Part shown: one piece after another, positions 3,801 to 64,000 of the stretch
How the letters are laid out: every line of letters starts with the position of its first letter
How positions within the stretch are numbered: the stretch's first letter is position 1
Source: Sitta carolinensis
Lineage: Eukaryota; Chordata; Aves; Passeriformes; Sittidae
Direction of reading: 5' to 3'
DNA length: 64,000 nt
Assembly: GCA_032173965.1 (NCBI GenBank)
Contig: CM063311.1
Span: forward strand, 1,358,271-1,422,270
Program-made: the position numbers and the translations under genes
The notes under the pieces: model-generated
Databases searched by the model: none
What the model was told of the DNA's origin: nothing
The model's input: only the letters and a program-made list of their open reading frames with translations

Positions 3801-6800
3801 AAAATCCCCGGGAATTCGGCTCCATCTGCTCAGCCCCGGGCTGGGAGCGAATCCCGGCCCCGGAATTCCGGCTGCAGCTCCCAAAAAAATGGGGAATTTT
3901 CTCAGCAAATGGGCAAAGAGCCCCCCCCAGGGCCGGATTCCAGGGATTCCAGGCAAAATCCGGGAATTCTGGGAGGTTTAGGGGGATTTTAGTGGGATTT
4001 TTGTGGGATTTCCACGGGATTTGGCAGGATTTCAATGGGAAGGGGTTTAATGAGATTTTAATGAGATTTTAAAAGGATTTAATGGGATTTTCAATGGGAT
4101 TTTAGTGGGATTTTAATGGGATTTTAATGGGATTTAGTGGGATTTTACTGGGATTTTAATGGAACTTAAATAGGATTTTAATTAAATTCTAGAGAAATTT
4201 CAATGGGATTTCAATGGGATTTTAATGGGACTTTAGTGGGATTTTATTGGGATTTTAGTGGAATTTTAACAGGATTTTAATGGGATTGAGTGGGATTTTA
4301 GTGGGATTTTAATTCAACTTAAATAAGATTTTAATGAAATTTTATTTGAATTTTAATAGGATTTTTAATGGGACTTCAGTGGGATTTTATTGGGATTTTA
4401 GTGGGATTTTAATGGGATTTTAGTGGGATTTTAATGGGATTTTTAATGGGACTTTAGTGGGATTTTAATGGGATTTTGGTGGGATTTTAATGGGATTTTA
4501 GTGGGATTCTAATGAGATTTTTAATGGGACTTTAGTGGGATTTTAATGGGATTTTATTGGGATTTTAATGGGATTTTATTGGGATTTTAATGGGATTTTA
4601 GTGGGATTCTAATGAGATTTTTAATGGGACTTTAGTGGGATTTTATTGGGATTTTAATGGGATTTTATTGGGATTTTAATGGGATTTTAGTGGGATTCTA
4701 ATGAGATTTTTAATGGGACTTTAGTGGGATTTTAATGGGATTTTAATGGGATTTTAATGGGATTTTATTGGGATTTTATTGGGATTTTATTGGGATTTTA
4801 ATGGGATTTTAATGGGATTTTAATGGGATTTTAGTGGGATTTACAGGGACTTCCCTGGGATTTCCCCGGCATTCAAAGCGACTCCTGCTGAGACATCCCT
4901 GGCATTCCCGGGGATTTGGTGGAATTCCCGGATTCCCGCGGCCATTCCGGGGCCTCCCACCCCCCGGCATTCCCGGCATTCCCGGCATTCCCGGCATTCC
5001 CGGCCCCTCACCCTGCGGATCTGCCTTCTTGAAGGCGTTCCCGGCGTCCACGAAGTTGGTGGCGGCGTCGTGTTTGCTCTGGAGCTGCAGCTGCAGCTGC
5101 GCCGCCCGCGAGAACGCGGCGCCGGCCTCTGGGACAGCAGGGGGGAAACACCGGGAAAAACATTGGGAAAACACCGGGAAAATATCGGGAATTCACCAGG
5201 AAAATATCAGGGATTAATGGGATTGATATCGGGGATTAACGGGATTGCCGCCCGCGAGAACGCGGCGCCGGCCTCTGGGACAGAGGGGGGGAAACACCGG
5301 GAAAACATTGGGAATTCACCGGGAAAATATCGGGAATTCACCAGGAAAATATCGGGATTAATGGGATTGATATCGGGATTAACGGGATTGCCGCCGCGAG
5401 AACGCGGCGCCGGCCTCTGGGACAGCGGGGGGAAACACCGGGATAAACATTGGGAATTCACCGGGAAAATATCGGGAATTCACGGAAAATATCGGGGATT
5501 AATGGGATTGATATCAGGGATTACGGCATTGCCCGCAAAACGCGCGCCGGCCTCTGGGACAGCAGGGGGAAACACGGGAATAACATTGGGAATTCACCGG
5601 GAAATATCGGGAAATTATCGGGAAATATCGGGGATTAATGGGATTGATATCAGGGATTAATGGGATTGATATCAGGGGATTAATGGGATTGGATGAATCG
5701 GGGATTAATGGGATTGATATCGGGGATAATGGGATTGATATCGGGGATTAATGGGATTGATATCGGGGATTAATGGGATTGCCGCCGTGAGAACGCGGCG
5801 CCAGCTCTGGGACAGCAGGGGGGAAACACCGGGATAACATGGGAAAACACGGGATAACACAGGGAATTCACGGGGAAAATATCGGGAGTTAATGGGGAAT
5901 TCACGGGAAAATATCGGAATTCATGGGGAAAATATTGGGAATTTATGGGGAAAACATGGGAATTCATGGGGAAAACATCGTGAATTCAGGGAAAATACAG
6001 GAATTCACGGGGAAAATATCGGGAATAATGGGAAAACATTGGGAAACACTGGGAATTCATGGGATAAACCAGGAAACACTGGGAATTAACGGGGTTAATA
6101 TCAGGAATTAATGGGGAAAACCTCGGGAATTTGAGGGGGAATTTGGGGCTGGAATTCCGCTGGGAATGCGGAGCTGGGATTCCCAGGATTCCCACTCAGG
6201 GAAATGGGAACGGGACCAGGATTTTTTGGGATTCCCAGGATTCCCAGGGAACAGGACCGGGATTTTTTTGGGATTTTTTTGGGATTTTTTGGGATTCCCG
6301 GGGTTCCACACTCACGGCTCCAGTTCTTGGCCATCTTGAACATGTTGGCGGCGCGGGCGTAGCACTCACAGGCCTCCTCCAGGCGGGAGGAGCCCCTGGG
6401 AATGACACCGGGAATACCGGGAATAACACCGGGAACGGGAACGGCACCGGGAACGGGAATGGGATTAGGAACGGCACCGGGAATGGCACCGGGAATAGGA
6501 ACAGGAATGGGACCAGAACACACCGGGAATGGCAGCGGGAACATCGGGAATGAGAGCAGGAATGGCACGGGAATGGCACTGGGAATGACACCGGAATAAC
6601 ACCGGGAATGGGAACGGGAATGAGACTGGGACACACCGGGAATGGCACAGGGAATGGGAACAGGAACAGCGGGAATGGGAACAGGAAACACCGGGAATGA
6701 CACCGGGAGTGACACCGGGGGGAACGGGGTAGAAAAGAGGGAAATGGGGGGGGAAAAACGGGGAGGTGGGGGGCAAAGCGGGAACGGGGGGAATTCCAGG

Positions 6801-8310: not shown

Positions 8311-8689
8311 CCGCCACAAAAAAAAAAAAAAAAAAAAAAAAAAAAGCGGCGAATCCGCCCCGAATCGCGGCCCTGTCGCGACAGCGGCGGCGACAGCGCG
8401 GCCGCGCGCTCCCCCCCCCCACCCCCACACACCCCCGCCCGCCGCCGCCGGGAAACCCCCCTCCCCCCCCCAGCCCGGTCCCCGCCGCGCCTCCCTCCCC
8501 CCCCCAACCCAACCCCGCGCCCCCCGGGAGCCCCGGTGCCCCCCCCCCCCCCAGCGCGCCCCGAGGAGCGGGGTGGGGGGCGGGGTCCCCTCCCCTCCCC
8601 CCCCAACCCCCCATCCCCCCCTGCTCGCAGCGGGCCCGGGGCTGAGGGGGGCGGGGGGGGCACGGGGTGGGGCCTTCGGCCTCGGCCGC

Positions 8690-9507
8690 CTCCTCCTCTT
8701 CCTCCTCCTCTTCCTCCTCCTCGTCCTCCCCGCGCTGCTGGCGCGGCTCTGCCTCCCTCATCTTCCTCGCCTGCCTCCTGCTCTTCCTCCTCATCTTCGT
8801 CCTCTGCCTCCTCTTCCTCCTGCGCTTCTTCCTCTGCCTCATCTTCCTCTTCCTCCTCATCTTCCTCCTCTGCCTCTTGCTCTTCCTCCTCCTCTTCCTC
8901 CCGCTGCTCTTCCTCCTCTGTCTCTGCCTCTTCTTCCTCCTCCTCCTCTCCCTCCTCTTCCTCGGGCTCTCGGCCTTCGGGTTGGTTCTGTGCCCTCCTC
9001 TTCCTCCTTTCCCTCTTCTCACTCTTCTCCCTTCTCTTCCTCTTCTTCCTCCTCTCCTTCCTCTCCCTCCTCTCCCTCCTCTCCCTCCTCTTCCTCCTCT
9101 CCCTCTTCTTCCTCCTCTTCCTCTTCTCCCTCCTCTCCCTCCTCTCCCTCCTCTCCCTCCTCTTCCTCCTCTCCCTCCTCTTCCTCCTCTCCCTCCTCTT
9201 CCTCCTCTCCCTCCTCTTCCTCCTCTCCCTCCTCCTCCTCCTCCTGCTCTTCCTCCCGTCCCTCTCCTCCTGCTGCTCTTCCTCAGGGATTGGGGAAGGG
9301 GCTGGGGGGGGTGCAGCCTTCATCCCCCTCCTGCTCCTCCTCTTCCTCGGGAGCTGTTTTGGGAATGTCCCAGCTCTGGCTCTGTGTGGGTGGCCTTCCT
9401 CATCCTCTTCCTCCTCCTCTTCCTTTCCTTTCCCTCTTCTTCCTCGTCTTCCTCTTCTTCATTTCCTTCTCTTTCTCCTCATCCTCAGGGATTCAGTTCT
9501 GGAGCTG

Positions 9508-9538
<31 letters not shown>

Positions 9539-9840
9539 CCTGCACTGCTGGCACAGCTCTTCCTCCACTGCCTCATCCTCCTCCTCATCTCCTCTTCCTC
9601 GGCTCCTTCCTCCTCCTCATCTTCCTCCTCCTGCTGCTCTGCCTCATCTTCCTCGTCTCTTCCTCATCTTCCTTCTCCTCTTCCTCCTCCTGCTCTTCCT
9701 CCACTGCCTCATCTTCATCTTCCTCCTCATCCTCTTCCTCCTGCTGCTCTTCCTCATCTTCCTCCCCTTTTCCTCCTCCTCCTCTTCCTCCTCTTTTCTT
9801 CTTCCTCTTCCTCTCCTCCTCCTCCTCCTCCTTCCCCATC
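8690..9840. repeat. 1.1-kb polypyrimidine tract (TTCCTCCTCTCCCTCC)
   Basis: Almost pure C/T on the plus strand, purine on the minus. It lies in the BICRA leader intron just after the CpG island and 27-A run. The Ser/Leu-rich plus and Glu/Arg-rich minus open frames across it are composition artefacts. Confidence 0.93.
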
Positions 9841-9844
9841 CCCA

Positions 9845-11170: not shown

Positions 11171-11219
11171 TTCTTTCCCCTTCCATTAAAATCCGGCCCG
11201 TGGGAAGCGCTGGGATCCG

Positions 11220-12900: not shown

Positions 12901-12942
12901 TTCCCTGGAAAAGTGACCCGGCTGTGTCTCCTTGCAGTTGAC

Positions 12943-18900: not shown

Positions 18901-21900
18901 CCAATCCCGGATTCCCGCCCCGTTCTCCGGCTGCTCCGCTCGCTTGGCGCTCACTGACCCCCGACGCTGCTGCCGCACCCCCAAAACCCCCGGAATTCGC
19001 CCCAAATCCTGGGAGCCTCCCCAGGGCCCTTCCCAGCTCCGGGAATTCGGGAACAGCCCGGCTGGGGCGGGGGGGGGGGGGAAGATCAGATCCAAAGTCA
19101 TCCCTGGAATGGGGAAAAAAAAGCCAGGAATGGGGGGAAAAAAAAACAGGAATGGGGAAAAAAAACAGAAATGGGGAAAAAAACCAGGAATGGGGAAAAA
19201 AAAAAACAGGAATGGGGAAAAAACCAACCAAAAATGGGGGAAAAGCCCCAGGAGTGGGGAAAAAAAACCCCAGGAATGAGGGGGGGAAAAAAAAGAAATG
19301 GGGAAAAAAACCCCAGGAATGGGGGAAAAAAAAACAGGAATGGGGAAAAAAAACCCAGGAATGAGGATTTTTGTGGGGGAAAAATGATGGAAAATCGGTT
19401 TTCCCCCCGATTTTTGGGTGAGAATTCCGGCTCGGAGCCGCTTTGGGGGATCCTCCCGTGGCTTCTGCTTCCCGAAATCCTTCGGGAACGGGGATTTGGG
19501 GGGTCTGGAAGGGTTTGGGGACCCCCGGGCTGGCTGTTCCTGGGATATTCCGCCCCTGGAGCTGCTTTGGGTGGATTTCCCTGGGTTTTCCCCCCATCCC
19601 TGCCTCCCCCAAGGGCTTCAAAAAAGCGGGGGGAGCGGGCTCCTGGGGGCGGCTCGGGAATGCCCAGCGTGGATTTTCCCGGGATATTCCGCTCCTGGCA
19701 CCCCCCGGAGCATCCCCAGGTGGATTTTCCTTCCTCCCCTCGCTCCCCCAGACTCCTCCAAATTCACAATTGGGTCGGAATCGGGCTCCAATTTTTTTCC
19801 TCCTGGGATACTCCGCTCCCAGCGCCCCTTTGGGAACACCCGGCTGGATCCTGCCTCAGTTTCCCTTTTCTCCTGCCTCCCCCAAACGCCCTAAAAATCC
19901 CAAATTTGTGACAGAACCGGGATCTGGGCAGGGCTCAGGACCCTCCCCATCGCTTTTCCCCGGGATCCCCATCCCGCAGCCGCTCGGAAGGAAAATCCAC
20001 CCGCGCATTCCCGCTTTTCCCCCTCCCCGTGCGCATAACCTCACCCGGGACGGGGATGGAATTCCACCCCCCGCCCCGCTTTTCCCGGGAATCCCACCTC
20101 TCCCTCCCGCACTAACCGAGCTCTTCCTCTCCTTCTCTGTTACAGCCGAAACTCCCGGGAGCGTCTCCCGGGGATCCCCGGCCCCGCAGATCCCCGCGCA
20201 GATCCCGCGCAGATCCCCGCGCAGATCCCGCGCAGATCCCCCCGATCCCTTCCCGGCCGCCCTCGCAGCCTCAGCCGCTCTCCCGCCCTCCTTCCCGGCC
20301 GCTTTCCCGACCCCCATCCCAACCCCGACCTCCTTCGGAGCCGCCTCGCCCGGAGCCGCCCCCGGGGCTTTTCGGGGTGCCGGGGGCGCCCTTCGCGGAG
20401 CCCCCGAGCCCCCGGGCCGAGCCCGCATTTCCCGCTGCCGCTGGCGCTGAAAGGAGCGGGAGCGGCGGCGCTGCTGCCGCCGGAGCATTCCCGGAGCTTC
20501 CCGCTCATCCCGGCTCCCTTCCAGCCCCTGCCCGCTGCTCCCACTGCTCCCGCTGCTCCCGCTGCTGCTCCCGCTGCTGCTGCTGCTGCCCCGCCGCAGA
20601 AAGCTGGCCCCGAGCGATTCCAGCAGGTAAATCCGGGAATTCCCCCCAAAAAACATCCCAAATATCCCAAATAGCATCCTAGCCTGGAGTGATTCCAGCA
20701 GGTAAATCCGGGAATTCCCCCAAAAAAATCCCAATATCCAATAGCATCCCGGCCCCGAGCGAGTCCAGCAGGTAAATCCCGGGAATTCCCCCAAAAAACA
20801 TCCCAAATATCCCAAATAGCATCCCGGCCCCGAGCGAGTCCAGCAGGTAAATCCCGGGAATTCCCCGAAAAAACATTTGCCAAATAGCATCCGGCTGGGA
20901 GCGATGTCCAGCAGGTAAATCCCGGGAATTCCCCCAAAAAAACATCCCAAATATCCCAAATAGCATCCGGCCCTGGAGGAGTTCCAGCAGGTAATCCGGG
21001 AATTCCCCAAAAACATCCCAAATATCCAAATAGCATCCTGGCTCCGAGCGAGTCCAGCAGGTAAATCCGGGAATTCCCCCAAAAAACATCCCAAATATCC
21101 CAAATAGCATCCGCCTCGGAGCGATTCCAGCAGGTAAATCCCGGGAATTCCCAAAAAAATCCAAATATCCCAATAGATCCCGCCCCGAGCGATCCAGCAG
21201 GTAAATCCCGGGAATTCCGGGAAAATCCGATTGGCACAAGGTCCTGGTCTGGAGTGATTCCAGCAGGTAAATCCCGGGAATTCCCCAAAAAAAACATCCC
21301 AAATATCCCAAATAGCATCCTGGCCTGGAGTGATTCCAGCAGGTGAATCCAGGGAATTCTCAGAGAAAATCAAAAATGTCCTGGCTCTGAGTGGTTCCAG
21401 CAGGTGAATCCTGGGAATTCCCCCAAAAAACATCCCAAATATCCCAAATAACATCTTAGCCTGGAGTGATTCTAGCAGGTAAATCCCAGGAATTCCAGAA
21501 AAAATCAAAAATATCCCAGCCCCGAGCGCTTCCAGCAGGCAAACCCCGATGGAATTCCGGGAAATCCCAAATATCCCGGGCTGGGACAGGTCAATCCCAA
21601 CAGGAATTCCCAGAAATCCTGGCATTGGGAATTCCCAAATCCCAGCCCCTGCTCAGATCCGAGGTGCTGGATTTGGGATTTGGAGGATTCAGGCGTTGGA
21701 TCCTGCTGGATTTGGGATTTTGAGTGGGTTCAGGTTTGGGATCCCGATGGATTTGGGATCTGGGGGGAAGTCGCCTGTTGGATCGCTCTGGGTTTGGGAT
21801 TTTGGGGGTTCCCAGAGTGGGATCCCTCTGGGTTTGGGATTTTTGGGGTTTTCCAGCTGTTCCTGACAGGATTTTGGGTTTTCCAGCCGTTCCTGCTGGG

Positions 21901-24900
21901 ATTTTGGGGTTCCCAGCCGTTCCTGATGGAAGTCGCCTGTTGGATCGCTCTGCGTTTGGGATTTTGGGGTTTTCCAGCCGTTCCGGGTGGGATTTTGGGG
22001 TTTTCCAGCCGTTCCTGATGGATTTTGGGTTTTCCAGGTGCCCCAGGGGCTGCTCCTGCAGCCGAAGCCGCCCCGTCCAGCCCGGCCCCGTTCCCGGCTC
22101 CGGCCGCTCCGTCCTGGTGCCGGCGGCTCCGGGAACGCCCGGCCCGGCCCTGGGCTCCGGCAGCGCCGCCGCCTCAGGTGGGGACGGAGCCCGCCCCAAA
22201 TCCTGACATCCCAAAATCCTGACATCCCAAAATCCTGATATCCCCAAATCCTGACATCCCAAAATCCTGAACATCCCAAAATCCTGATATCCCCAAATCC
22301 TGACATCCAAAATCCTGACATCCCAAAATCCTGAACATTCCAAATCCTGACATCCCAATATCCTGAACATCCCAAAATCCTGACATCCCAAATCCTGAAC
22401 ATCCCAAATCCCGATATCCCAAAATCCTGACATCCCAAATCCTGACATCCCAAATCTGAACATCCCAAATCCCGATATCCCAAAATCCTGAACATCCCAA
22501 ATCCTGAACATTCCAAATCCTGACATCCCAAATCCTGACATCCCAAATCCTGACATCCCAAAATCCCGATATCCCAATATCCTGATATCCCAAATCCTGA
22601 TATCCCAAAATCCAGATATCCAAAATCCCAATGTCCTGACATCCCCAAATCCCCATTCCCACATCCCCACTCCCATTTTCCCATTTCCCCCAGTTTCCCA
22701 CTCCCATTTTCCCATTCCTCATTCCCCATTCCCAACTCCCCATTCCCATTTCCCCATTCCCAATTCCCCATTCCCATTCCCCATTCCCAATTTCCCCCCA
22801 TATCCCCATCCCCAATTCCCCATCCCCAATCCCCATTCCCAGTTTCCCACTCCCATTCCCATCCCAATTCCCCATCCCAATCCCCATTCCCAGTTTCCCA
22901 TTCCCATTCCCATCCCCAATTCCCCATCCCCAATCCCCATTCCCAGTTTCCCACTCCCCATTCCCATCCCAATTCCCCATCCCCAATCCCATTCCCAGTT
23001 TCCCACTCCCCATTCCCATCCCCAATTCCCCATCTCCAATCCCCATTCCCAGTTTCCCATTCCCCATTCCCATCCCCAATTCCCCATCCCCAATTCCCCA
23101 TCCCCAATCCCCATTCCCAGTTTCCCACTCCCCATTCCATCCCCAATTCCCCATCCCCAATCCCCATTCCCAGTTTCCCACTCCCCATTCCATCCCCAAT
23201 TCCCCATCCCCAATCCCATTCCAGTTTCCCATTCCCCATTCCCATCCCCAATTCCCCATCCCCAATCCCCATTCCCAGTTTCCCACTCCCCATTCCCATC
23301 CCCAATTCCCCATCTCCAATCCCCATTCCCAGTTTCCCATTCCCCATTCCCATCCCCAATTCCCCATTCCCAATCCCCATTCCCAGTTTCCCACTCCCAA
23401 TTCCCCATTCCCATCCCCAATTCCCCATCCCCAATCCCCATTCCCAGTTTCCCATTCCCCATTCCCATCCCCAATTCCCCATTCCCAATCCCCATTCCCA
23501 GTTTCCCACTCCCAATTCCCCATTCCCATCCCCAATTCCCCATCCCCAATCCCCATTCCCAGTTTCCCATTCCCCATTCCCATCCCCAATTCCCCATTCC
23601 CAATCCCCATTCCCAGTTTTCCACTCCTCCGTGTCCCTTCTCCCGCAGGTGCCGCCGCCGCCCCGGCCGACTCGAAGCCGTTCCCCTCCGGCTCCGGCGC
23701 CGTTCCCGGCTCCATTCCCGGCTCCATTCCCGGCTCCATTCCCGGCACCGTTCCCGGCACCGTTCCCAGCACCGTTCCCGGCGCTATTCCCGGTTCTCTG
23801 CCCTCCTCCAAGGGGCTCCCGGTTCCCGGGAAGGCGGGCGCCGCCCTGCCCGCCCCGCCGCCCGCGCAGGTGAGCGCCTGCCCCGCCCTCGCCCCGCCCT
23901 CGCCCCGCCCTCACCTAGCCCCGCCCTAGCCCCGCCCTCGCCCCGCCCTCACCTAGCCCCGCCCTAGCCCCGCCCTAGCCTCGCCCTGCCCTAGCCTCGC
24001 CCCTCGCCCCGCCCTCACCTAGCCCCTCCCTAGCCCCGCCCTAGCCTCGCCCCTAGCCCCGCCCTAGCCCCGCCCTCACCTAGCCCCGCCCTCGCCCCGG
24101 GATTTCCCCTCTTTTCCCCATTCCCGCCTTTATTCCCGAGCGTTCCCACCCTGGGCAGCCCGGGCTTCCCCTTTAGTTCGGGGGTTTCCACCTTTAATTC
24201 CAGTTTTCCACCTTGAATTCCAATTTTTTTCCCTTTAATTCCAATTTTCCACCTTTAATTCCAGTTTTTTTTCCCTTTAATTCTGTTTTTTCTCCCTTAA
24301 TTCCACTTTTCCCCTTTAATTCCAATTTTCCCCCTTGAATTCCATTTTTTCCCCTTTAATTCCACTTTTCCCTCTTTAATACCACTTTTCCCCCTTTAAT
24401 TCCAATTTTTCCCTCTTTACTTCCAATTTTCCCCCTTTAATTCCACTTTTCCCCCTTTAATTCCACTTTTCCCTCTTTAATTCTTTTTTTCCCCCTTCAA
24501 TTCCATTTTTTCTGCCTTTATTTCCCTCCTCACTCTTTATTTCCCATTTCCACCCTCACACCCAGGATTTTCCCGTTTATTTCCCACTTTTCCCGTTCAT
24601 TTCACCATTTTCCTGCTTTTTTCCCCCCAATTTTTTCAATTTCCCCCCTTTCTTTCCCGTTTTTTCAATTTTCCCACTCTTATTCCCCCTTTTTTTTCAC
24701 TTTATTTCCCAGTTTTTCCCCTGGGTTTTCTCCTTTGGGCTCCTCCCCTTTCCCAGCTCCGGGAATTCCTCGGGCATTCCCAACTTTTTCCCGTTTTCCC
24801 CAATTTTTTCCCCGTTTTTTCCGCAGGCGAAGCCGGCCGGGATCAAGGGCCCCCCCCAAACCGTCGGGGGGCGGGAAGGGCCCCCAGGCCCCGCCCATGG

Positions 24901-44900: not shown

Positions 44901-45052
44901 ACGTGGACAGGGATGGCATGCTGGACCACGAGGAGTTCGCGCTGGCCGGGCATCTGATCGGGGCCAAGCTGGAGGGCAGAGGGCTGCCCGCTGATCTGCC
45001 GCCCCGCCTGGTGCCGCCATCCAAGAGGAGGCACAAGGGATCTGCTGAGTGA
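38924..45052 (+). CDS. EHD2: EH domain-containing protein 2, five coding exons, full length
   Basis: EHD2 is a dynamin-like ATPase that forms rings at caveolar necks and holds caveolae at the plasma membrane. Coding exons: 38924-39318, 40499-40596, 42075-42487, 42969-43133 and 44522-45052. All are in phase, giving 533 residues against 543 in human. The N-terminus is MFSWLRRQ. The P-loop GQYSSGKTS is at residues 62-70, DTPG at 150-153 and NKAD at 216-219. The helical domain follows ([11 protein letters not shown]), then an acidic linker [17 protein letters not shown]. The C-terminal EH domain has [30 protein letters not shown] and the EF-hand loop [13 protein letters not shown]. It ends [13 protein letters not shown], as in mammalian EHD2. 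The first donor is GTCAGG; the rest are ordinary. The intron before exon 3 carries five partial copies of the exon's start. Confidence 0.96.
39400..39990. repeat. GGGATCCACCCTGGGATCGG repeat in EHD2 intron 1
   Basis: About 20-base units, BamHI-site-rich. The rest of the intron to 40498 is C-rich and G-rich low complexity with no exon. Confidence 0.9.
41510..42074 (+). repeat. Five decoy copies of the EHD2 exon 3 acceptor edge in a two-type alternating array
   Basis: Exon-like starts lie at 41510, 41629, 41741, 41859 and 41971; each has the 32 bases GCTACGACTTCCCGGCCGTG... to TGGTTC after a CCCAG. Types with TGTGACT and TACGACT alternate, and same-type copies are 230 bases apart, so dimers were amplified. 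Confidence 0.93.
42075..42487 (+). CDS. EHD2: EHD2 exon 3 (end of G domain and start of helical domain)
   Basis: Acceptor CCCCCCAG at 42074; reads [60 protein letters not shown] and ends KRARLVR before GTGAGC. It is the only copy that continues past RWF into coding sequence. The five upstream copies switch to intron after the RWF codons. Confidence 0.94.
42490..42965. repeat. Repeat of GTGGATTTTCAGGGATCTTAGAGGAT type in EHD2 intron 3
   Basis: About seven ~60-70 base units with GATCACCCTGGAGCTCC. Ends just before exon 4. Confidence 0.88.
43140..44500. repeat. CCGCTGGGATCGGCTGGGAT and GCTGGGATCCACCGGGATCT arrays, then T-rich GATCTGATG repeat
   Basis: 43140-43950 is a ~10-base unit starting directly after the EHD2 exon 4 donor. 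44030-44440 is GATCTGATGTGGGTTTTTTG with long T runs. CCGATGAGCCTCCCCCC appears twice (44236, 44436). Confidence 0.9.
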
Positions 45053-45671
45053 TTCCTCCCCCTCTCTCCCCTAAAAAAAAAAAAAAAAAAAATCAGAGTG
45101 AAAGGTCCACCAAAATTCAGCCGGGAAACTCCTGGGGATTGGGGATTTGTAGGTGCTGCCCTGTAAGAGGAGGTGTGAGGGTGCTGGTGAGTGAGCACAG
45201 AAATTCTTCCTAAATACCCCGAAGAGCTCTAAAATACACCCCAAAATACACCCAGGAATATCCCAAAAAATACCCCAAAGAGCTCCAAAATACACTAGGA
45301 ATATCCCAAAAAATACCCCAAAGAGCTCCAAAATCCACCAGGAATATCCCAAAAAATACCCCAAAGAGCTCTAAAATACACCAGGAATATCCCAAAAAAT
45401 ACCCAAAGAGCTCCAAAATACACCCCAAAATACACCCAGGAATATCCCAAAAAATACCCCAAAGAGCTCCAAAATACACTAGGAATATCCCAAAAAATAC
45501 CCCAAAGAGCTCCAAAATACACCCCAAAATCCACCCAGGAACCATCCAGGAATATCCCAAAATCAGGGATTTACAGAAATTCCAAGAGGAGACACAAGGG
45601 CTCTGCTGAGTGACCCCAAATTTCCTCCTCAAAAATATCCCAAAGAGCTCTAAAATCCATCCAGGAATATC

Positions 45672-45703
<32 letters not shown>

Positions 45704-45940
45704 AAGAGCTCTAAAATCCACCCAAAATCCACCCAGGAATATCCCAAAATCAGGGATTTACAGAGATTCCCGTGCCTGGTGCCGCCCTCCAAGAGGAGGC
45801 ACAAGGGGCCCCCCCTGAATGACCCCCAAAAGCCCCAAAATCACCCCAAAATCACACCCAGATAAAAAAAAAAACAAAATAATAATAAAAAAAAACAAAG
45901 TCAGGGATGCCCCAATAAAGGCAGAGAGAAGCTGAAGGAG
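45053..45940 (+). other. EHD2: EHD2 3' UTR with AATAAA at 45914-45919 and two extra copies of the end of the coding sequence
   Basis: After the stop come a poly-A run at 45075 and an array of AAAATACCCCAAAGAGCTCC units (45215-45760). The text around AAGAGGAGGCACAAGG and the stop codon recurs at about 45577-45620 and again at 45774-45820. A canonical AATAAA at 45914 is followed by unique sequence and then a new repeat, which suits the transcript end near 45935. Confidence 0.65.
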
Positions 45941-46515: not shown

Positions 46516-46519
46516 GTTT

Positions 46520-47113: not shown

Positions 47114-50100
47114 ATGGCGGCGGCCGAGTCGTTCCTCGCCTTCAGCCCCGGCGCCGCCGCCGCCTCCTCCCGGCGCCGCGCCCGCGGGCCCCGCAACCGC
47201 AAGAAGGGCTGGAAGCGCTGGAGCGGCCCCGAGGCGCGGCTGGGTCGCGAAATCGGCGATTTCTTGGAGGATGTGGGGTTGCAGGAGCGAGCGGCGGGGT
47301 GAGCAGGGGGGGATTTCGGGGCTTCGTGAGGGAGCGAGCGGCGGGGGTTGGGGGTCCCTGGAGCTCCTGAAAGGACTCGGAGGGGATTTGGGGGTCCCCG
47401 AGCTCCTCCAGGGAGCTGTAGGGGGTTTGAGGGGGCTCCTCATGGGATTTGGGGGTCCCTGAGCTCCTCAGGGGGTTTGGGGCTCAGAGAGGGCTCCTCA
47501 TGGGGGGTTTGGGGGTCCCTGGAGCTCCTGAAAGGACTCGTAGGGGGTTTGAGGGGGCTCCTCATGGGGGATTTGGGGGTCCCTGAGCTCCTCAGGGGGT
47601 TTGGGGCTCAGAGAGGGCTCCTCATGGGATTTGGGCGTCCCTGAGCTCCTCAGGGGGTTTGGGGCTCAGAGAGGGCTCCTCATGGGGGGTTTGGGGGTCC
47701 CTGAGCTCCTGAAAGGACTCGTAGGGGGTTTGAGGGGGCTCCTCATGGGGGTTTGGGGGTCCCGAGCTCCTCAGGGAGCTGTAGGGGATTTGAGGGGGCT
47801 CCTCATGGGGCTTTGGGGGTCCCTGAGCTCCTGAAAGGACTCGTAGGGGTTTGAGGGGGCTCCTCATGGGGATTTGGGGGTCCCCGAGCTCCTCAGGGAG
47901 CTGTAAGGGATTTGAGGGGGCTCCTCATGGGGTTTGGGGGTCCCTGAGCTCCTGAAATGACTCGTAGGGGATTTGGGGGTCCCCGAGCTCCTCCAGGGAG
48001 CTGTAGGGGGTTTGAGGGGGCTCCTCATGGGATTTGGGGGTCCCTGAGCTCCTCCAGGGAGTTGGGGGGCTCAGAGAGGGCTCCTCATGGGATTTGGGGG
48101 TCCCTGAGCTCCTCAGGGGGTTTGGGGCTCAGAGAGGGCTCCTCATGGGGAGTTTGGGGGTCCCTGAGCTCCTGAAAGGACTCGTAGGGGATTTGGGGGT
48201 CCCCGAGCTCCTCCAGGGAGTTGGGGGTCTCACAGAGAGCTCTGAGCCCTCCGAGGGGAGGTCTGAGCCCCCCCAATTTTCTGAGCCCCCGAGGGGAGGT
48301 CTGAGCCCCCCAAGTTTCTGAGCCCCCCTAATTCCTTGCTCCGCTCTCTCCCAGGGGTCTCATCTCGGAGCAGCCGGACGAGGGTCTTTTCTTCCTCGAC
48401 ACTGGGAGCCCCCCCAAAGGTGCGGATTTTGATTTATTTTCCCCTCAGGATTGGGGGTTTTGAGGGGTCCTGACCACCCTGAACCCCCCCAGGACGGAGC
48501 CCCCCCAAACCCCCGCAGAAACCGCTGCACGTGGACCTGGTGCTGCAGCCGCTCTCCAAGGTGCCGCCCCCCAAAAAGTGAGTCTGGGGGTGCTCTGGGG
48601 GCTTTTTGGGGGTCCCTGCATCCGGGGCACCTCCACACACGCTTTGGGGTCGCGATTTTGGGGGGCTCACTCCCAGTTTTCATGGGAAATTGGGGGGTGT
48701 GGGCGCCAGAGTTGGGGTGTGGGCTCTAAAATTGGGGGTCTGGGTGCCAAAATTGGGGGGTCTGGGCCCTAAAATTGGGGGTCTGGGCCCTAAAATTGGG
48801 GGTCTGGGCCCTAAAATTGGGGGTCTGAGCGCCAGAATTGGGGTGGGCACCAAAATTGGGGGGTGGGCACCAAAATTGGGGGATCTGTCCCAATGTGGGG
48901 GGTCTGTCCCCAATGTGGGGGGTCTGTCCCCAATCTGGGGGGTCTGGGCCCCCATTTGGGGGGGTCTCTCCCCAATCTGGGGGTCTGTCCCCAATCTGGG
49001 GGGCTCTGTCCCCAATCTGGGGGGGTCTGTCCCCAATCTTGGGGGTCTCTCCCCAATCTGGGGGGCTCTGTCCCCAATCTGGGGGGCTCTGTCCCCAATC
49101 TTGGGGGTCTGTCCCCAATCTGGGGGACTCTGTCCCCAATCTGGGGGGGTCTGTCCCCAATGTGGGGGGTCTGTCCCCAATCTGGGGGTCTGTCCCCAAT
49201 CTGGGGGGTCTGTCCCCAATGTTGGGGGGTCTGTCCCCAATCTGGGGGTCTGTCCCCAATCTGGGGGGGTCTGTCCCCAATGTGGGGGCTCTGTCCCCAA
49301 TCTTGGGGGTCTGTCCCCAATCTGGGGGGCTCTGTCCCCAATCTGGGGGGTCTGTCCCCAATGTGGGGGGTCTGTCCCCAATCTGGGGGTCTGTCCCCAA
49401 TCTGGGGGGGTCTGTCCCCAATGTTGGGGGGTTCGTCCCCAATCTGGGGGTCTGTCCCAATCTGGGGGGTCTGTCCCCAATGTGGGGGGTCTGTCCCCAA
49501 TCTGGGGGTCTGTCCCCAATCTGGGGGGGTCTGTCCCCAATGTTGGGGGTCTGTCTCCAATGTTGGGGGTCTGTCTCCAATCTGGGGGTCTGTCCCAATC
49601 TGGGGGTCTGTCCCCAATGTTGGGGGGATCTCTCCCCAATCTTGGGGGTCTGTCTCCAATGTTGGGGGTCTGTCTCCAATCTGGGGGTCTGTCCCCAATC
49701 TGGGGGTCTGTCTCCAATCTGGGGGGTCTGTCTCCAATGTTGGGGGATCTGTCCCCAATCTTGGGGGTCTGTCCCCAATCTGGGGGCTCTGTCCCCAATC
49801 TGGGGGGCTCTGTCCGCAATCTGGGGGGCTCTGTCCCCAATCTGGGGGGTCTGTCCCCAATCTGGGGGGCTCTGTCCCCAATCTGGGGGGTCTGTCCCCA
49901 ATCTGGGGGTCTGTCCCCAATCTGGGGGGTCTGTCCCCATTTGGGGGGTCTGTCCCCAATGTGGGGGTCTGTCCCCAATCTTGGGGGTCTGTCCCCATTT
50001 GGGGGGTGGTGTCCCAATCTGGGGGGTCTGTCCCCATTTGGGGGGTGTGTGTCCCCAATCTGGGGGGTCTGTCCCCATTTGGGGGTGTGTGTGTCCCAAT

Positions 50101-53100: not shown

Positions 53101-56100
53101 GGGATTTGGGATTTTGTCTCTCATCCCTGGCTCTGGGCTCTGATCCCTGGGATTTGGGATTTTGTCTCTCATCCCTGGCTCTGGGCTCTGATCCCTGGGA
53201 TTTGGGATTTTGTCTCTCATCCCTGGCTCTGGGCTCTCATCCCTGGCTTTGGGATTTTGTCTCTCATCCCTGGCTCTGGGCTCTCATCCCTGGCTTTGGG
53301 ATTTTGTCTCTCATCCTGGCTCTGGGCTCTCATCCCTGGCTCTGGCTCTCATCCCTGGCTTTGGGCTCTGTGATTTTGTCTCTCATCCCTGGCTCTGGGC
53401 TCTGATCCCTGGGATTTGGGATTTTGTCTCTCATCCCTGGCTCTGGGCTCTGATCCTGGGATTTGGATTTTGTCTCTCATCCCTGGCTCTGGGCTCTGGG
53501 CTGCCGCAGGAGGCCGTGCTGCAGGAGCAGCTGCAGGGGCTGCTGGAGGAGGAGCAGGAGCAGGATCAGGATCAGGATCAGGATCAGGATCAGGAGGGTC
53601 CCGGGCGTCGCCCCCCAGCCCGCGCCCAGCCCGGCCGGAAAACCGAGAAACAGCGACGGAGGGAGAAGGAGCAGAGGGAGAAGGTGAAGGGTCGGGATTG
53701 GGGTGGGATTGGGATGGGATTGGGATGGGATTGGGGTCAGGGTCGGGATTGGGGTGGGAGCCCTGGGATCCATGGGATGGATGAGAAGGAGGGGATTGAT
53801 GGGGGGGATCCATGGGATGGGATCAGGGACGGATCCGTGGGGTCCCTAATGGGATTATGGGATCAGGGCTGGGTTTACGGGGCCAGGATGGGATCAGGGA
53901 TCCCTGATGGTTTTTGGGGTCCCTGATGTTTTTCTGGGATCCCTGATGGTTTTTTGGGATCCCCGATGCGTTCTGGGGTCCCTGATGGTTTTTGGGTCCC
54001 TGATGGGTGTTTAGGATCCCTGATGGTTTTTTCTGGGATCCCTGATGCGTTCCTGGGATCCCTGATGGGTTTTTCTGGGATCCCTGATGGTTTTCCTGGG
54101 CTCCCCGATGTTTTCCTGTGCTCCCTGATGGTTTCCTGTACTCTTGATGGGTTTTCCCGTGCCCCGATGTGTTTTCCCGTGCTCCCTGACAGTTTTTAGG
54201 ATCCCAGATGGTTTTTTAGGATTCCCGATGGGTTTTCCCCTGCTCCCTGACAGTTTTTGGGCTCCCCAATGTTTTCCCCGTGCTCCCGATGTTTTCCCTG
54301 CTCCCCGATGTTTTCCCCTGCTCCCCGATGTGTTTCCCTGCTCCCTGGCAGTTTCCCTGTGCTCCCCGATGTGTTTCCCCTGCTCCCTGACAGTTTCCTG
54401 TGCTCCCCGATGTGTTTCCCCTGCTCCCTGACAGTTTTCCCCTGCTCCCCGATGTTTTCCCCTGCTCCCTGGCAGTTTCCCTGTGCTCCCCGATGTTTCC
54501 CCTGCTCCCTGGCAGTTTCCCTGTGCTCCCCGATGTGTTTCCCCTGCTCCCCGATGTTTTCCCCTGCTCCCCGATGTGTTTCCCCTGCTCCCTGACAGTT
54601 TCCCTGTGCTCCCCGATGTTTTCCCCTGCTCCCTGGCAGTTTCCCTGTGCTCCCCGATGTGTTTCCCCTGCTCCCTGACAGTTTTTCCCCTGCTCCCCGA
54701 TGTGTTTCCCCTGCTCCCTGACAGTTTCCCTGTGCTCCCCGATGTGTTTCCCCTGCTCCCTGGCAGTTTCCCTGTGCTCCCCGATGTGTTTCCCCTGCTC
54801 CCTGACAGTTTCCCTGTGCTCCCCGATGTGTTTTCTCCTGCTCCCTGACAGTTTCCCTGTGCTCCCCGATGTGTTTCCCCTGCTCCCTGGCAGTTTCCCT
54901 GTGCTCCCCGATGTGTTTCCCCTGCTCCCTGGCAGTTTCCCTGTGCTCCCCGATGTTTTCCCCTGCTCCCTGGCAGTTTCCCTGTGCTCCCCGATGTGTT
55001 TCCCCTGCTCCCTGGCAGTTTCCCTGTGCTCCCCGATGTGTTTTCTCCTGCTCCCTGGCAGTTTCCCTGTGCTCCCCGATGTGTTTCCCCTGCTCCCTGA
55101 CAGTTTCCCTGTGCTCCCCGATGTTTTCCCCTGCTCCCTGACAGTTTTCCCCTGTCCCCCAGGCCGGTGCCCGTGCGCGGCGGCTCCTGGCAGCGCGGTG
55201 CCTGCAGGGGCTGTTCCGCCTGCGCTCCCTGCGCCGCGCCCTGCGCCAGCGCGACGCCGAGCTGCAACTGCGCCGGGAGCGGCGGCTGCGGCTGCGGCTG
55301 CGCCGGGACACGGAGCCCAGGAGGCTGGGCAGGCTCAGGTGGGGAAACGGGGGGAAAATGGGGTTGGGATGGGGGAAATGGGGATTAGGATGGGGGAATG
55401 GGGGTTGGGATGGGGGAATGGGGGTTTGGGATGGGGGAAATGGGATTGGGATGGGGAGAGGGGGATTGGGAGAGGGGGAAATGGGGATTGGGATGGGGGA
55501 GAGGGGGTTTGGGTGGGGAGAGGGGATTAGGGATGGGGGAAAGGGGATTGGGATGGGGGAGAGGGGGGTTGGGAGGGGAAATGGGGTTGGGATGGGGAAA
55601 ATGGAGTTGGGATGGGGGAGAGGGGGTTTGGGTGGGCAGAGGGGGGTTGGGAGGGGAAATGGGGTTGGGATGGGGAAAATGGAGTTGGGATGGGGGAGAG
55701 GGGGTTTGGGTGGGGAGAGGGGGGTTGGGAGGGGAAATGGGATTGGGATGGGGGAGAGGGGGTTGGGATGGGGGAGAGGGGATTAGGATGGGGAATGGGG
55801 ATTGGGATGGGGGAGAGGGGGGTTGGGAGGGGAAAATGGGATTAGGGATGGGGGAATGGGGGATCTGGGTGGGGGAAATGGGGTTTGGGATGGGGGAGAG
55901 GAGATTTGGGATGGGGAAAGGGGATCTGGGTAGGGGAAATGGGGTTTGGGATGGGGAAAAGGGATTTGAGATGGAAAGGGGATTTAGGGGGGAAAAAAGG
56001 GATTTCGGAGGGAAATAAGGATTTGGGGATGGGGCTCAGGAGTGACCCCCCAGCTGTGGGGTCTGGAGGGGCTCTCCCTTCCCTGGCCCCCTGGGAATGG

Positions 56101-57401: not shown

Positions 57402-57445
57402 TTGGGACCCCTCCCAAATAAATTCACTGGAGCGGCTCCGGGTCT
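57402..57445 (+). other. NOP53: NOP53 3' UTR and polyadenylation signal
   Basis: Very short: the stop TGA at 57399-57401 is followed by AATAAA at 57417-57422 and then a GT-rich stretch (GGGTCTGGGGGTC) from about 57439 that could serve as the downstream element. Confidence 0.7.
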
Positions 57446-58375: not shown

Positions 58376-58439
58376 CTCAGGTCTCTGTGACCCCTTTATT
58401 TACACTTTGGGGGGCTCTGCCCCCCCCAGCACCTCTGAG

Positions 58440-58775
58440 ACCCCCCCAAAAAAAATAAACTCACCCCAAATAAACACAAATATCCCCAAAATAAATACAA
58501 ACATCCCTGAAATAAATACACCCCAAAAAATAAATACCTAAATAAATACAAACACCCCAAAATAAACACAAATATCTCTAAAATAAATACACCCCAAAAA
58601 TAAATAAATACACCCCAAAAATAAATACACCCCAAAAAATAAATACAAACCTTCCCAAAATAAACACCCAAATAAATACAAATTCCCCCAAAATAAATAT
58701 AGATCCCTCAAATAAATAAATACAAATCCCTCAAATAAATAAATACAAATCCCTCAAATAAATCCAAGCCCCCCC
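58440..58775. repeat. AATAAATACACCCCAAAAAT array
   Basis: AATAAA occurs more than twenty times on the plus strand in about 330 bases, 1 kb after the NOP53 stop. The plus strand is A-rich, so no signals serve the connexin gene on the minus strand. Confidence 0.92.
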
Positions 58776-59735: not shown

Positions 59736-59739
59736 CCCA

Positions 59740-60420
59740 ATAGCACACATTGGCAGACTCGCTGCTCCGTGTCCTGCCCAGTGCCAGCCCCAATCCCATC
59801 CCAATATCCCCAATCCCATCAAACATAAACTGACTCGCTGCTGTGTCCTGCCCATTCCATTCCCAACCCCATCCCAATATCCCAGTATCCCACTATCCCA
59901 GTGTCACACATAGGCAGACTCGCTGCTCTGTGTCCTGCCCATCCCCGTCCCTGTTCCCGTTTCCATCCCCGTTCCCGTTCCCATTCCCATTCCCATCCTG
60001 CCTCCCGTGGATCTGTGCCGGGCTCCATTCCCACTATCCCAGTATCCCACTATCCCAGTGTCACACATAGGCAGACTCGCTGCTCTGTGTCCTGATCCCA
60101 TCCCCACTATCCCACTATCCCAGTGTCACACATAGGCAGACTCGCTGCTCTGTGTCCTGATCCCATCCCAGTATCCCACTATCCCAGTGTCACACATAGG
60201 CAGACTCGCTGCTCTGTGTCCTGATCCCATCCCAATATCCCACTATCCCAGTATCCCAGTGTCACACATAGGCAGACTCGCTGCTCTGTGCCCTGATCCC
60301 ATCCCACTATCCCAGTATCCCACTATCCCAGTGTCACACATAGGCAGACTCGCTGCTCTGTGTCCTGCCCAGCCCCGTCCCCGTCCCCGTTCCCGTTCCC
60401 ATCCCCGTTCCCATCCCCGT
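59740..60420 (-). repeat. Six good and two decayed copies of the connexin C-terminal codons and stop
   Basis: On the minus strand GGACACAGAGCAGCGAGTCT + GCCTATGTGTGA recurs, with stop positions at about 60334 (functional), 60262, 60190, 60125, 60061 and 59904, and decayed copies near 59825 and 59745. They are spaced by GGGATAGTGGGATACTGGGA repeats. Confidence 0.93.
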
Positions 60421-60717
60421 TCCCGTTCCCGTCCCACCTCCCGCGGATCGGCGCCGAGCCCGCGCTCCCCGCACGGCCGCGCGCACCTTGCGCCAGCCCA
60501 GGTGGTTGAGCTCGGCCAGGTTGAGCAGGACGCAGACGCCGGACACGGCGAACATGAACACGAGGAACACGGTTTTCTCCGTGGGCCGCGACACGTAGCA
60601 CTCGACCTCCTTGACGCACGGGTAGCGGTCGCACTCGAAGATGGCCGGGACGTTGAAACCGTAGAGGAAATACTGCCCGCCCAGGAAAGCGATCTCCAGC
60701 GCGTTCCGGAACACCAC
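60334..60717 (-). CDS. GJD2-like: Connexin last exon (second extracellular loop, TM4, C-tail)
   Basis: 128 codons including the stop, opened by TTTTGCTCAG on the minus strand. The cysteine pattern [12 protein letters not shown] is intact. After RRRSAGGG the tail becomes a run of GT/GM dipeptides from a GGGAACGGGGATG repeat, where Cx36 has a unique sequence. It then returns to the conserved [10 protein letters not shown] end. The stop is at 60336-60334. Confidence 0.88.
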
Positions 60718-63700
60718 CTGAGCAAAACACAGGCTGAGAATGGATACAGAGTGCCCTGAAATAAATACAGATAGAACAGAACACCACCTGAGCAAAACAC
60801 AGGCTGAGAATGGATACAGAGTGCCCTGAAATAAATAGAGACTGTCCTGAACACCACCTGAGCAAAACACAGGCTGAGAATGGATACAGAGTGCCCTGAA
60901 ATAAATACAGATAGAACAGAACACCACCTGAGCAAAACACAGGCTGAGAATGGATACAGAGTGCCCTGAAATAAATACAGATAGAACAGAACACCACCTG
61001 AGCAAAACACAGGCTGAGAATGGATACAGAGTGCCCTGAAATAAATACAGACTGTCCTGAACACCACCTGAGCAAAACACAGGCTGAGAATGGATACAGA
61101 GTGCCCTGAAATAAATACAGACAGTCCTGAACACCACCTGAGCAAAACACAGGCTGAGAATGGATACAGAGTGCCCTGAAATAAATAGAGACAGTCCTGA
61201 ACACCACCTGAGCAAAACACAGGCTGAGAATGGATACAGAGTGCCCTGAAATAAATACAGACTGTCCTGAACACACACCTGAGCAAAACACAGGCTGAGA
61301 ATGGATACAGAGTGCCCTGAAATAAATAGAGACAGTCCTGAACACCACCTGAGCAAAACACAGGCTGAGAATGGATACAGAGTGCCCTGAAATGAATACA
61401 GACAGTCCTGAACACCACCTGAGCAAAACACAGGCTGAGAATGGATACAGAGTGCCCTGAAATAAATACAGATAGAACAGAACACCACCTGAGCAAAACA
61501 CAGGCTGAGAATGGATACAGAGTGCCCTGAAATAAATACAGACTGTCCTGAACACCACCTGAGCAAAACACAGGCTGAGAATGGATACAGAGTGCCCTGA
61601 AATAAATACAGACTGTCCTGAACACCACCTGAGCAAAACACAGGCTGAGAATGGATACAGAGTGCCCTGAATTAAATACAGACTGTCCTGAACACCACCT
61701 GAGCAAAACACAGGCTGAGAATGGATACAGAGTGCCCTGAATTAAATACAGAGTGCCCTGAACACCCTTTGGGGTTCATTTTGTGCCCATTTTATTACCA
61801 TTCTCTCCCCACTTTCTCCCCATTTTCTCCCCATTTTCTCCCCACTTTCCCCCCCGTTTCTCCCCCTTTCTCCCCATTTTCTCCCCATTTCCCCCTGTTT
61901 CTCCCCATTCCCCCCACTCTGTGCCCATTCTCTCCCGTTTCTCCCATTTCTCCATTCCCCTTTTCTCCCCATTTCCCCCCTGTGCCATTCTCCCCATTTC
62001 CCCTTCTCCCGTTTCTCCCCCCCCCACTCCGATCCCATCCCCTCTCTCTCCCCCCCGCCCATCCCCGCCCGTGTCCCACCTGGATCAGGTAGAACCTGGA
62101 GATGCCCCGGTGCCCGTGGCTCCTGGCGGGGCGCTGCCCGGGCTCCCGGCGGGCTCTGCCCGTGCCCGTGCTCGCTCCCGTGCTCGCTCCGCTCGCTCCC
62201 GCGCTCGCTCCCGCTGCTCCGCGCTCGCTCCCGCTCCCGCGCGCGCCTCCAGCAGCGGGCACAGCAGGGGCGGGCGGCGCTCGCGCTGCTTGGCGGCCTG
62301 GTGCACCTGCGAGGAAAGGGTTAACGGGGACCGGGCACACGGGGAGGCACCGGGGGGAAAGGGGGAAAGGGGGGAGAAAAAAGGGGGAAAAAAAAGGGGG
62401 AAAAAACGGGGAGAAAAAGGAGGGAAAAAGGGGGAAAAAAGGGAAAAAAAGGGGGGAAAAGGGGAAAAAAGGGGGGGAAAAAAGGGAAAAAAGGGGGGGA
62501 AAAAAGGGAAAAAAGGGGGGGAAAAGGGGGAAAAAGGGTGAATAAAAAAGAAGAAAAAAAAAAGAAAAAAAAGGGGAAATAAGGGGGGAAAAAGGGGAAA
62601 AAAAGGGGGAAAAGGGGAAAAAAAAAGGGGGAAAAAATGGGGAAAAAAAAAAAAAAAAAAAAAGGAAAAAGGAGAAAAAAGGGGAAAAAAGGAGGAAAAA
62701 AGGAAAAAAAGGGAAAAAAGAGAAAAGGGAAAAAAGGGAAAAAGGGAAAAAAGGAAAAAAAAAAAAGGGAAAATAAGGGGGAAAATAGGGAAAAAAAGGG
62801 GGAAAAAAAGGGGGAAAAAAAGGGGGGGAAGGGGAAAAAAAAGGGGAAATGCCATTTTTGGGGTGATAAGTCCCATTTTTGGGGCGATAAATCCCATTTT
62901 TGGGGTAATAAATTCCATTTTTGGGGTAATAAATCCCATTTTTGGGGTAACAAATCCCATTTTTGGGGCGATCAGAGCCCCATACCCACCGAGTAGGTGA
63001 TGAAGCAGAGGCTGGGCGTGGGAATTGGGGTTTTTGGGGTGATAAATCCCCATTTTTGGGGTGACAAATCCCATTTTTGGGTCGTTTTTGGCCCGTACCC
63101 ACCGAGTAGGTGATGAAGCAGAGGCTGGGCGTGGGAAGGGTTTGGGGTTATTTTGGGGTGATAAATCCCATTTTTGGGGTGAAAATCCCATTTTTGGGTC
63201 GTTTTTGGCCCCGTACCCATGAGTAGGTGATGAAGCAGAGGCTGGGCATGGGAATTGGGGTTTTTGGGGTGATAAATCCCATTTTTGGGGTAACAAATCC
63301 CATTTTTGGGTCGTTTTTGGCCCCGTACCCACCGAGTAGGTGATGAAGCAGAGGCTGGGCGTGGGAATTGGGGTTTTTGGGGTAACAAATCCCATTTTTG
63401 GGGTGATAAATCCCATTTTTGGGGTGATAAATCCCATTTTTGGGTCGTTTTTGGCCCCGTACCCAGTGAGTAGGTGATGAAGCAGAGGCTGGGCGTGGGA
63501 ATTGGGGTTTTTGGGGTATAAATCCCATTTTTGGGGTGACAAATCCCATTTTTTGGGTCGTTTTTGGCCCCGTACCCACCGAGTAGGTGATGAAGCAGAG
63601 GCTGGGCGGACATAGGGATTGGATAGACCCATGTTGGGGTGGAAAAGCCATTTAGGGTGGGTTGGCCCGCTGAGAGTGTTGATGAACAGGCTGTGCCCTC

Positions 63701-64000
63701 GTGATGGGATTATTGGGTGATAAATCCCATTATTCTGGGACAAAATGATTTGGGGAATATGCCCCGACCTACCAGGATCTAGGTGATGAAAGAGAGTTGG
63801 GGCGTGGAAAATTTGTGGAGATCCTTTTGGGGTGAAACCATGTTTGGGGTGACAAATCCCATTTTTGGGTCGTTATTGGCCGTACCACGGAGTGGAGGGG
63901 ATGAAGCAATGGCTGGGCGTGCACAGCAGGATGATCTGGAAGACCCAGTAGCGGATTGGGAGATGGGAAGGCGCTGTCGTAGCAGGCCTGGTGCAGCGGG
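60334..64000 (-). CDS. GJD2-like: Delta-group connexin (connexin 35/36-like, GJD2-like), 3' part with three exons; 5' end off the right edge
   Basis: Connexins form gap-junction channels; the delta Cx35/36 type builds neuronal electrical synapses. On the minus strand the exons are 64000-63889 (partial), 62306-62080 and 60717-60334. The first gives ACYDSAF and [13 protein letters not shown] (second transmembrane segment). The second gives [11 protein letters not shown], a Glu/Arg/Ala cytoplasmic loop and [11 protein letters not shown]. The third gives [40 protein letters not shown] (second extracellular loop cysteines), [20 protein letters not shown] and [18 protein letters not shown]. It ends [11 protein letters not shown], a PDZ ligand like that of Cx36. 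Introns at TYS|VH and IQ|VV are not expected: GJD2 is normally split only near codon 23. The middle exon is 227 bases, one short of keeping frame, and the partial exon has several apparent base losses. It could be GJD2 or its GJD1/Cx34 sister, retained in non-mammals. Confidence 0.85.
60711..61765 (-). repeat. Fifteen 70-bp units carrying the connexin last-exon acceptor
   Basis: Units begin every 70 bases from 60711. On the minus strand each ends TGTGTTTTGCTCAG followed by GTGGTGTTC, the first codons of the last exon. Only the unit at 60711 continues into CGGAACGCG coding sequence. Units differ at a few sites (AGAACAG/GACTGTCC/GACAGTCC). Confidence 0.95.
61790..62860. repeat. Pyrimidine CCCATTTTCTCCCC array and 500-base polypurine GGGGGAAAAAA array flanking the connexin middle exon
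   Basis: 61790-62030 is CTCCCCATTT-type. 62335-62860 is A/G only on the plus strand (hence a pure pyrimidine tract upstream of the middle exon on the coding strand). Confidence 0.92.
62080..62306 (-). CDS. GJD2-like: Connexin middle exon (cytoplasmic loop), one base short
   Basis: CCTCGCAG precedes GTGCACCAG ([11 protein letters not shown]). The loop is Arg/Glu/Ala-rich from repeats of a GAGCGCGAGCG type. The end, GISRFYLIQ, is in another frame and is followed by donor GTGGGA at 62079. Both junctions look phase 0, so 227 bases implies one missing base inside the loop. Confidence 0.72.
62860..63888 (-). repeat. Tandem copies of the connexin TM2-exon donor edge, ~115-bp unit
   Basis: The minus-strand text CCCAGCCTCTGCTTCATCAC + CTACTC and donor GTGGGT recurs at 62991, 63104, 63221, 63334, 63468 and 63581, with a decayed copy near 63785. 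CCCATTTTTGGGGTGATAAAT units lie between. Confidence 0.94.
63889..64000 (-). CDS. GJD2-like: Connexin exon with end of first extracellular loop and TM2, cut by the window edge
   Basis: Reads CYDSAF, then [16 protein letters not shown], in shifting frames. Compared with the connexin pattern, single bases seem to be missing near 63990, 63972 and 63961. The last coding stretch differs from its tandem copies further left (SLCFITYS), which are cleaner. The accuracy of this end of the sequence is doubtful. Confidence 0.65.

Follow-up and report, generated by a model that had tools for sequence, protein, structure and literature searches.

A 64-kb stretch of the genome of the bird Sitta carolinensis (64,000 nucleotides of contig CM063311.1, assembly GCA_032173965.1, containing no N; hereafter the window) carries tandem arrays whose units each include the edge of a coding exon together with its splice site. 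These arrays are exon stuttering, a form of sequence stuttering on avian dot chromosomes that was already named in chicken in 2026 (Hron et al., 2026, Genome Biol Evol evag038, PMC12954441), the only paper on exon stuttering that our literature search found. The original prediction, made from the letters of this DNA, had assigned the arrays to no named class, and on that point it is superseded. We propose, with a probability of roughly 0.8, that exon stuttering here is the outcome of a tandem-duplication process that is indifferent to exon borders and is trimmed by selection on coding sequence.

The window contains five protein-coding genes, NAPA (minus strand), BICRA, EHD2 and NOP53 (each on the plus strand) and a GJD2-like connexin (minus strand). 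Their identities are backed by Pfam domains (SNAP, EHD domains, GLTSCR1, Nop53 and Connexin), and the nearest PDB matches of the connexin are gap junction delta-2. The order NAPA-BICRA-EHD2-NOP53 fits that of human 19q13.3. Tandem repeats cover 61.7% of the window, and rows from Tandem Repeats Finder (TRF) with a period of at least 6 cover 67.9% of noncoding bases versus 13.2% of the coding bases in the exon map. To judge from its genes and its load of repeats, the window is likely to come from a bird dot microchromosome. While the host introns are filled with repeats, the source exons stay intact: when the splice sites nearest the borders are used, the spliced frames of NAPA E1-E5, EHD2 E1-E5 and BICRA E10-E14 (E denoting exon) are open. 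The exceptions are frameshifts in BICRA E5 and in the middle exon of the connexin.

Exon edges copied into adjoining introns

We mapped 65 splice edges (74 exon ends minus nine arbitrary or non-splice ends); the start of BICRA E6, the end of NOP53 E4 and the NOP53 exons E8 and E10 are unplaced in this exon map. BICRA exon numbers used here are one higher than those of the original prediction (E6, E11 and E13 are its exons 5, 10 and 12). For each edge, a border-spanning probe of 12 exon and 20 intron bases was searched in the adjoining intron, with probes whose exon part came from another exon serving as the control. Border-spanning copies occurred at 7 of the 65 splice edges, compared with a mean of 0.05 and a maximum of 1 in 40 runs with swapped exon parts. 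The seven edges are the acceptors of NAPA E3, BICRA E11, EHD2 E3 and the last connexin exon, and the donors of BICRA E6, E11 and E13. The connexin TM2 donor is an eighth splice case, whose source exon is not intact within the window; with it, all eight places named beforehand as having units of exon bases plus splice site are accounted for. No border-spanning copy was present at the 22 tested edges of NOP53, where an exact 15-base copy of E1, 47 bp beyond the donor, fell below threshold. A separate observation in this gene is that the 99-bp intron between E2 and E3 (48420–48518) ends in GGAGCCCCCCCAAA, an echo of the final bases of E2 (local score 28, reached by 0 of 27 controls).

A second screen used BLAST at a level of 42.1 bits and was patterned on the published search for exon copies in introns (PMC12954441). 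At least 42.1 bits were reached by 21 same-locus copies, 13 of them at splice edges and 8 at stop codons; the maximum over 20 shuffles was 32.2. Three matches to other loci stood at this level, one being an EHD2 copy relisted through an overlapping flank and the other two apparently low-complexity. Four inverted matches also reached it, each pairing the CCT-rich flank upstream of NAPA with the serine-rich part of BICRA E14. About 1.1 kb of CCT/TCC-rich repeats lies upstream of NAPA (8689–9832) and contains long open frames in at least two phases. Exon-only edge probes (n = 62) gave seven strong results, one of which, from the arbitrary end of the connexin middle exon, was left out of the count; also left out were three further edges that exceeded all 30 other introns by small margins (NOP53 E1 donor, 30 versus 23; NOP53 E2 donor, 28 versus 27; BICRA E8 donor, 26 versus 24). 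The connexin acceptor array, with an exon part of only 9–13 bases, was too short in exon sequence for these probes to detect; the border-spanning probe caught it. Chance similarity was ruled out by the swapped-exon, other-intron and shuffle controls.

The copies carry the border signal with them. GT or AG was kept at the matching place in 51 of 54 copies, and the exon part reached the border base in most matches of six confirmed splice arrays, with exceptions in EHD2 (two of five matches, starting at base 6), NAPA (one of three, base 3) and BICRA E13 (three of nine, 2–8 bases short). On the other side, the depth to which copies extend into the exon is shared within most arrays. NAPA E3 (5012–5128, minus strand; placed by the exon map and an open spliced reading frame) is the source of an acceptor array at 5101–5805, also on the minus strand, in which up to 28 exon bases plus the acceptor recur in four copies at −146, −288, −425 and −678 from the real acceptor, and 3/3 matches end at +28. 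EHD2 E3 (42075–42487, plus strand; exon map and open spliced frame) has an acceptor array at 41488–42106 on the same strand, made of five copies of 32 exon bases plus acceptor with a 230-bp higher-order period; here 5/5 edge matches end at +32. Elsewhere in NAPA, the intron after exon 3 holds about 72 copies of the 11-bp unit TTTAATGGGAT (4046–4842), and in intron 1 an anchored 3' measure stood above all 27 controls.

BICRA contributes four arrays, all on the plus strand. E11, the GLTSCR1-domain exon (27033–27181), has arrays at both edges: its bases 1–37 and 78–149 are copied, and no copies were seen of its middle 40 bases (38–77). The acceptor array (26689–27069) has a 161-bp unit matching at 99%, with the first 37 exon bases and two extra acceptors; the donor array (27110–27556) has units of 159 and 157 bp, each with the last 72 exon bases, and two extra donors. 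The inner limits are common to 2/2 acceptor and 2/2 donor matches. At the E13 donor (29675–30898), nine copies with a unit of about 100 bp hold the donor and, in full copies, 30 exon bases; the inner four are identical in their exon part, and 9/9 matches start at −29. The E6 donor array (20606–21577; real donor between 20626 and 20627) consists of 13 copies resembling CCAGCAG/GTAAATCC, with the slash at the border, in 60–76 bp steps; 12 have GT, each holds about 14–23 exon bases, and CCAGCAGGTRAATCC was matched 12 times, source included. The protein-like sequence seems to switch frame partway through both E6 (20300–20626) and E7 (22038–22177), which suggests indels or small introns left unplaced.

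The last coding exon of the connexin (60334–60717 to the stop codon, minus strand), identified by Pfam and PDB matches, adjoins an acceptor array at 60705–61766 on the same strand, where TTTTGCTCAG joined to GTGGTGTT across the border occurs 14 times as an exact match (the source and 13 copies). The spacing is in 70-bp steps with one 141-bp gap, and 100 shuffles gave no exact occurrence. Of the seven splice arrays whose source exon is intact, five have shared inner limits, and each of these five would therefore appear to have had one seed and later growth. Copy likeness tends to fall with distance from the border in NAPA and BICRA E13, with no such trend in EHD2 or BICRA E6. At their outer ends the arrays are eroded.

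The copies had been described as diverged, which holds for several arrays and fails for the BICRA E11 acceptor copies and the inner four of E13, all nearly identical. The 99% match among the E11 acceptor units is what would be expected if single-copy borders had been multiplied by long-read stuttering or misassembly, and the degenerate connexin exon at the window edge could be read in the same way, as could the frameshifts resembling base-level indels in the connexin middle exon and in BICRA E5. We consider such an artefact very unlikely, given the divergence between copies or the higher-order structure seen in several arrays, and the open spliced frames in NAPA, EHD2 and BICRA E10-E14. In chicken, moreover, raw nanopore reads confirmed the structure in PHF8, and length variation was reported for 183 of 192 introns with exon stuttering (PMC12954441). 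The frame shifts themselves lie in otherwise conserved coding sequence (about 16300 in BICRA E5; 62306–62080 in the connexin middle exon) and probably reflect base-level indels that arose in the assembly of GC-rich DNA; copy numbers in the arrays, read from a single assembly, may be wrong.

Stop-codon copies and coding constraint

Copies were also present at coding borders that have no splice site. The connexin stop-codon array (59751–60367, minus strand) comprises the coding end, TGA and 3' flank in five copies besides the source; 29–38 exact bases back from the TGA are common to the five, and a weaker copy lies at the far end. In EHD2, whose real stop ends at 45052, two pieces of the coding end lie in the 3' flank (45581–45807, plus strand): 45581–45613 is a copy of the last 33 bases including the stop, and 45774–45807 is a copy of 34 bases ending 13 bases short of the end of the stop. 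We found no statement of stop-codon copies in the sections of PMC12954441 consulted.

Inside coding exons, repeats are seen mostly where they leave the frame intact. The period was divisible by 3 in 23 of 24 TRF rows inside coding exons versus 151 of 433 noncoding rows; at NOP53 E9, for example, a coding tandem repeat (53545–53596, plus strand) has TRF periods of 6, 12 and 18, all divisible by 3. Together with the stop-codon copies, these repeats suggest that duplication ignores gene structure and that selection sets the visible pattern. TRF arrays crossed 6 of the 65 splice edges, compared with 36.5 (standard deviation 4.8) under circular shift, and none of 1000 shifts gave a value as low. 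Because of this deficit of crossings, exon borders are avoided, not sought, at least where coding constraint is concerned.

These results bear on the possibility that exon borders are preferred seeding places, with a polypyrimidine tract, GT/AG context, R-loops or pausing starting the duplications. The border itself lies inside all eight splice arrays, and the splice core is among the better-conserved parts in four of the five arrays for which this was assessed, standing above the array average (midranks 0.127, 0.13, 0.055, 0.092 and 0.72). However, a direct tandem copy beside an intact exon is visible only if its unit spans the border, so the position of the border is guaranteed by geometry, and both the six crossings where 36.5 were expected and the copies at two stop-codon edges argue against a special role for splice sites. 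We therefore regard preferential seeding at borders as unlikely. The idea that duplications were seeded across borders and then expanded keeps its descriptive part, in that units span borders and five of seven arrays look as if they had one seed; the part that would make the border special is not supported. That extra copies are always found toward the intron follows from geometry combined with selection on the exon: with a unit that straddles the border and an exon that is preserved, the copies come to lie in noncoding DNA. Nor are copies restricted to splice borders, since two stop-codon edges have them too.

Under the border-indifferent process that we favour, local tandem duplication and expansion would run over the whole repeat-rich segment, blind to exon borders. 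Where a duplicated segment happened to include a coding border, selection would go on acting on the copy still attached to the body of the exon, and the remaining copies would become noncoding DNA with an exon fragment and a border signal (donor, acceptor or stop codon). Each array may then grow and shrink through slippage or unequal exchange. Within this account, the copies, the inner limits common to most arrays, the low number of border crossings, the stop-codon cases and the frame filter in coding repeats are observed, and the one-seed history, the mode of growth and the action of selection are the parts we infer. The published text leaves the mechanism open between replication stress, G-quadruplex (G4) structures and meiotic repair (PMC12954441), and the stop-codon copies and multiple-of-three coding repeats narrow the question of mechanism. 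A G4 motif was present in 4 of 10 units tested and absent from 6, and the connexin acceptor unit, with its 13 copies, has no G4 and only 46% GC; a G4 inside the unit is thus not required.

Several observations weigh against this reading. The circular-shift test mainly gauges avoidance of coding DNA, and TRF missed the NAPA array; the TRF rows overlap, so that 23 of 24 amounts to about ten separate loci. Indifference to splice sites is judged from two stop edges, of which EHD2 has just two separated copies, and at the third complete stop edge in the window, that of BICRA, no such copy was found. As for the seeds, the fourth NAPA copy aligns without gaps over only 10 exon bases, the connexin acceptor copies have exon parts of two lengths (9 and 13 bases), the BICRA E6 copies have no common inner limit (−22, −20, −19 and −14), and one connexin stop copy aligns over about 111 coding bases (86%), making multiple seedings possible. 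The BICRA E6, connexin acceptor and stop arrays are less uniform than the others and may therefore have had more than one seed. The conservation of the splice core, finally, is suggestive as a weak hint of constraint.

Extra splice sites and the connexin introns

The arrays had been thought to give each gene a ladder of competing splice sites. As sequence the ladder is there, with GT or AG kept in nearly every copy. Among 34 extra GT/AG sites in the six arrays of NAPA, BICRA and EHD2 (for E6 sites, the reading covered 90 bases upstream of the donor and 60 bases of E7), 29 would lead to a premature stop and 5 would keep the frame. The frame-keeping sites are BICRA E11 +159, with a predicted insert of 53 residues, and E13 +99 (33 residues), +399, +594 and +1065.

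Judged from sequence, it is highly improbable that the extra sites are kept and used for regulated isoforms or for a delay of splicing. The intact dinucleotides (51 of 54 copies) and the five frame-keeping sites, such as BICRA E11 +159 and E13 +99, would suit such a function. Against it stand the premature stops at 29 of 34 sites and the stop-codon copies, useless for splicing, and intact sites in young copies would be explained by array growth alone. The window also offers specific genes for studying whether splicing makes use of the duplicated sites.

In the connexin, the TM2 donor array (62918–63608, minus strand) has units of 113–134 bp and six well-formed copies, with GT kept in 4/6. The intact source exon is not in the window. 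The apparent TM2 exon at 63956–63900, within a stretch (63880–64000) that also has a frame break, has a degenerate end. It could be a long copy that has broken down, or else an exon that has been damaged, in which case the intact exon would lie beyond the window. The connexin may be GJD1, since GJD1 and GJD2 are handled as separate groups and gjd5 is absent in reptiles including birds, according to the text of PMC7914757.

The connexin also has introns at Ser/Val and Gln/Val (62080–62306 and 60717, minus strand), possible lineage-specific gains. Both places lie within what is a single coding exon in human GJD2. This location would favour intron birth, in which the arrays, at least in the connexin, record tandem duplication of coding segments with splice-like AGGT. 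The second junction, ATCCAG/GTGGTG (CAG/GTG), is a classic proto-splice site, the start of the second intron resembles that of the next exon (local score 16; 1 of 27 controls as high), and both introns contain border ladders, made of donor-side copies in the first and of 13 acceptors in the second. Introns are, furthermore, known to be gained through tandem genomic duplication at AGGT, as reviewed in PMC3443670. Against intron birth, anchored matches in the second intron are 8/20 and 9/20, a level that 3 of 27 controls reached at either end, its 3' local score of 12 was equalled by 8 of 27 controls, and the connexin middle exon carries a frameshift. We accordingly judge intron birth improbable. 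If true, stuttering would create introns besides filling them, and dot chromosomes would be a place to watch intron birth.

Relation to known systems

In chicken, exon stuttering was described for 236 introns in 115 genes, with 190 of the 236 introns on dot chromosomes, and more than 90% of the copied pieces lay within 1 base of the border, with the splice donor or acceptor included (PMC12954441). The window resembles these cases: the genes are filled with repeats, and partial copies of an exon edge, each with the adjacent donor or acceptor, follow one another in direct tandem within the intron next to the exon. Its exon parts of 9–72 bases and copy numbers of 2–13 compare with a published 20–187 bases (median 36) and 1–44 copies (median 4). 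It differs in having copies at two stop codons without a splice site, in having one exon, BICRA E11, copied from its acceptor edge as well as its donor edge, and in including exon parts under the published cut-off of 20 bases. NAPA, BICRA, EHD2, NOP53, GLTSCR1, connexin and GJD2 are not named in the main text of PMC12954441, whose gene list in Fig. S5 may hold them.

Three other systems share features with the arrays. Intron gain at AGGT, as described in PMC3443670, likewise involves a tandem duplication that doubles splice-site sequence and alters exon-intron structure; there, however, duplication inside an exon yields a new intron, whereas in the window existing borders are multiplied into existing introns. 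The internal tandem repeats reported in human segmental duplications (PMC2812944) are minisatellites, some of them at exon-intron boundaries, that change gene structure, but they concern recent human paralogs, have units of about 30 bp on average and involve no chromosome-wide process. Ordinary intronic minisatellites, like the arrays described here, have tandem units, higher-order periods and diverged copies; their units are purely intronic, whereas those of the window hold coding bases together with a border signal.

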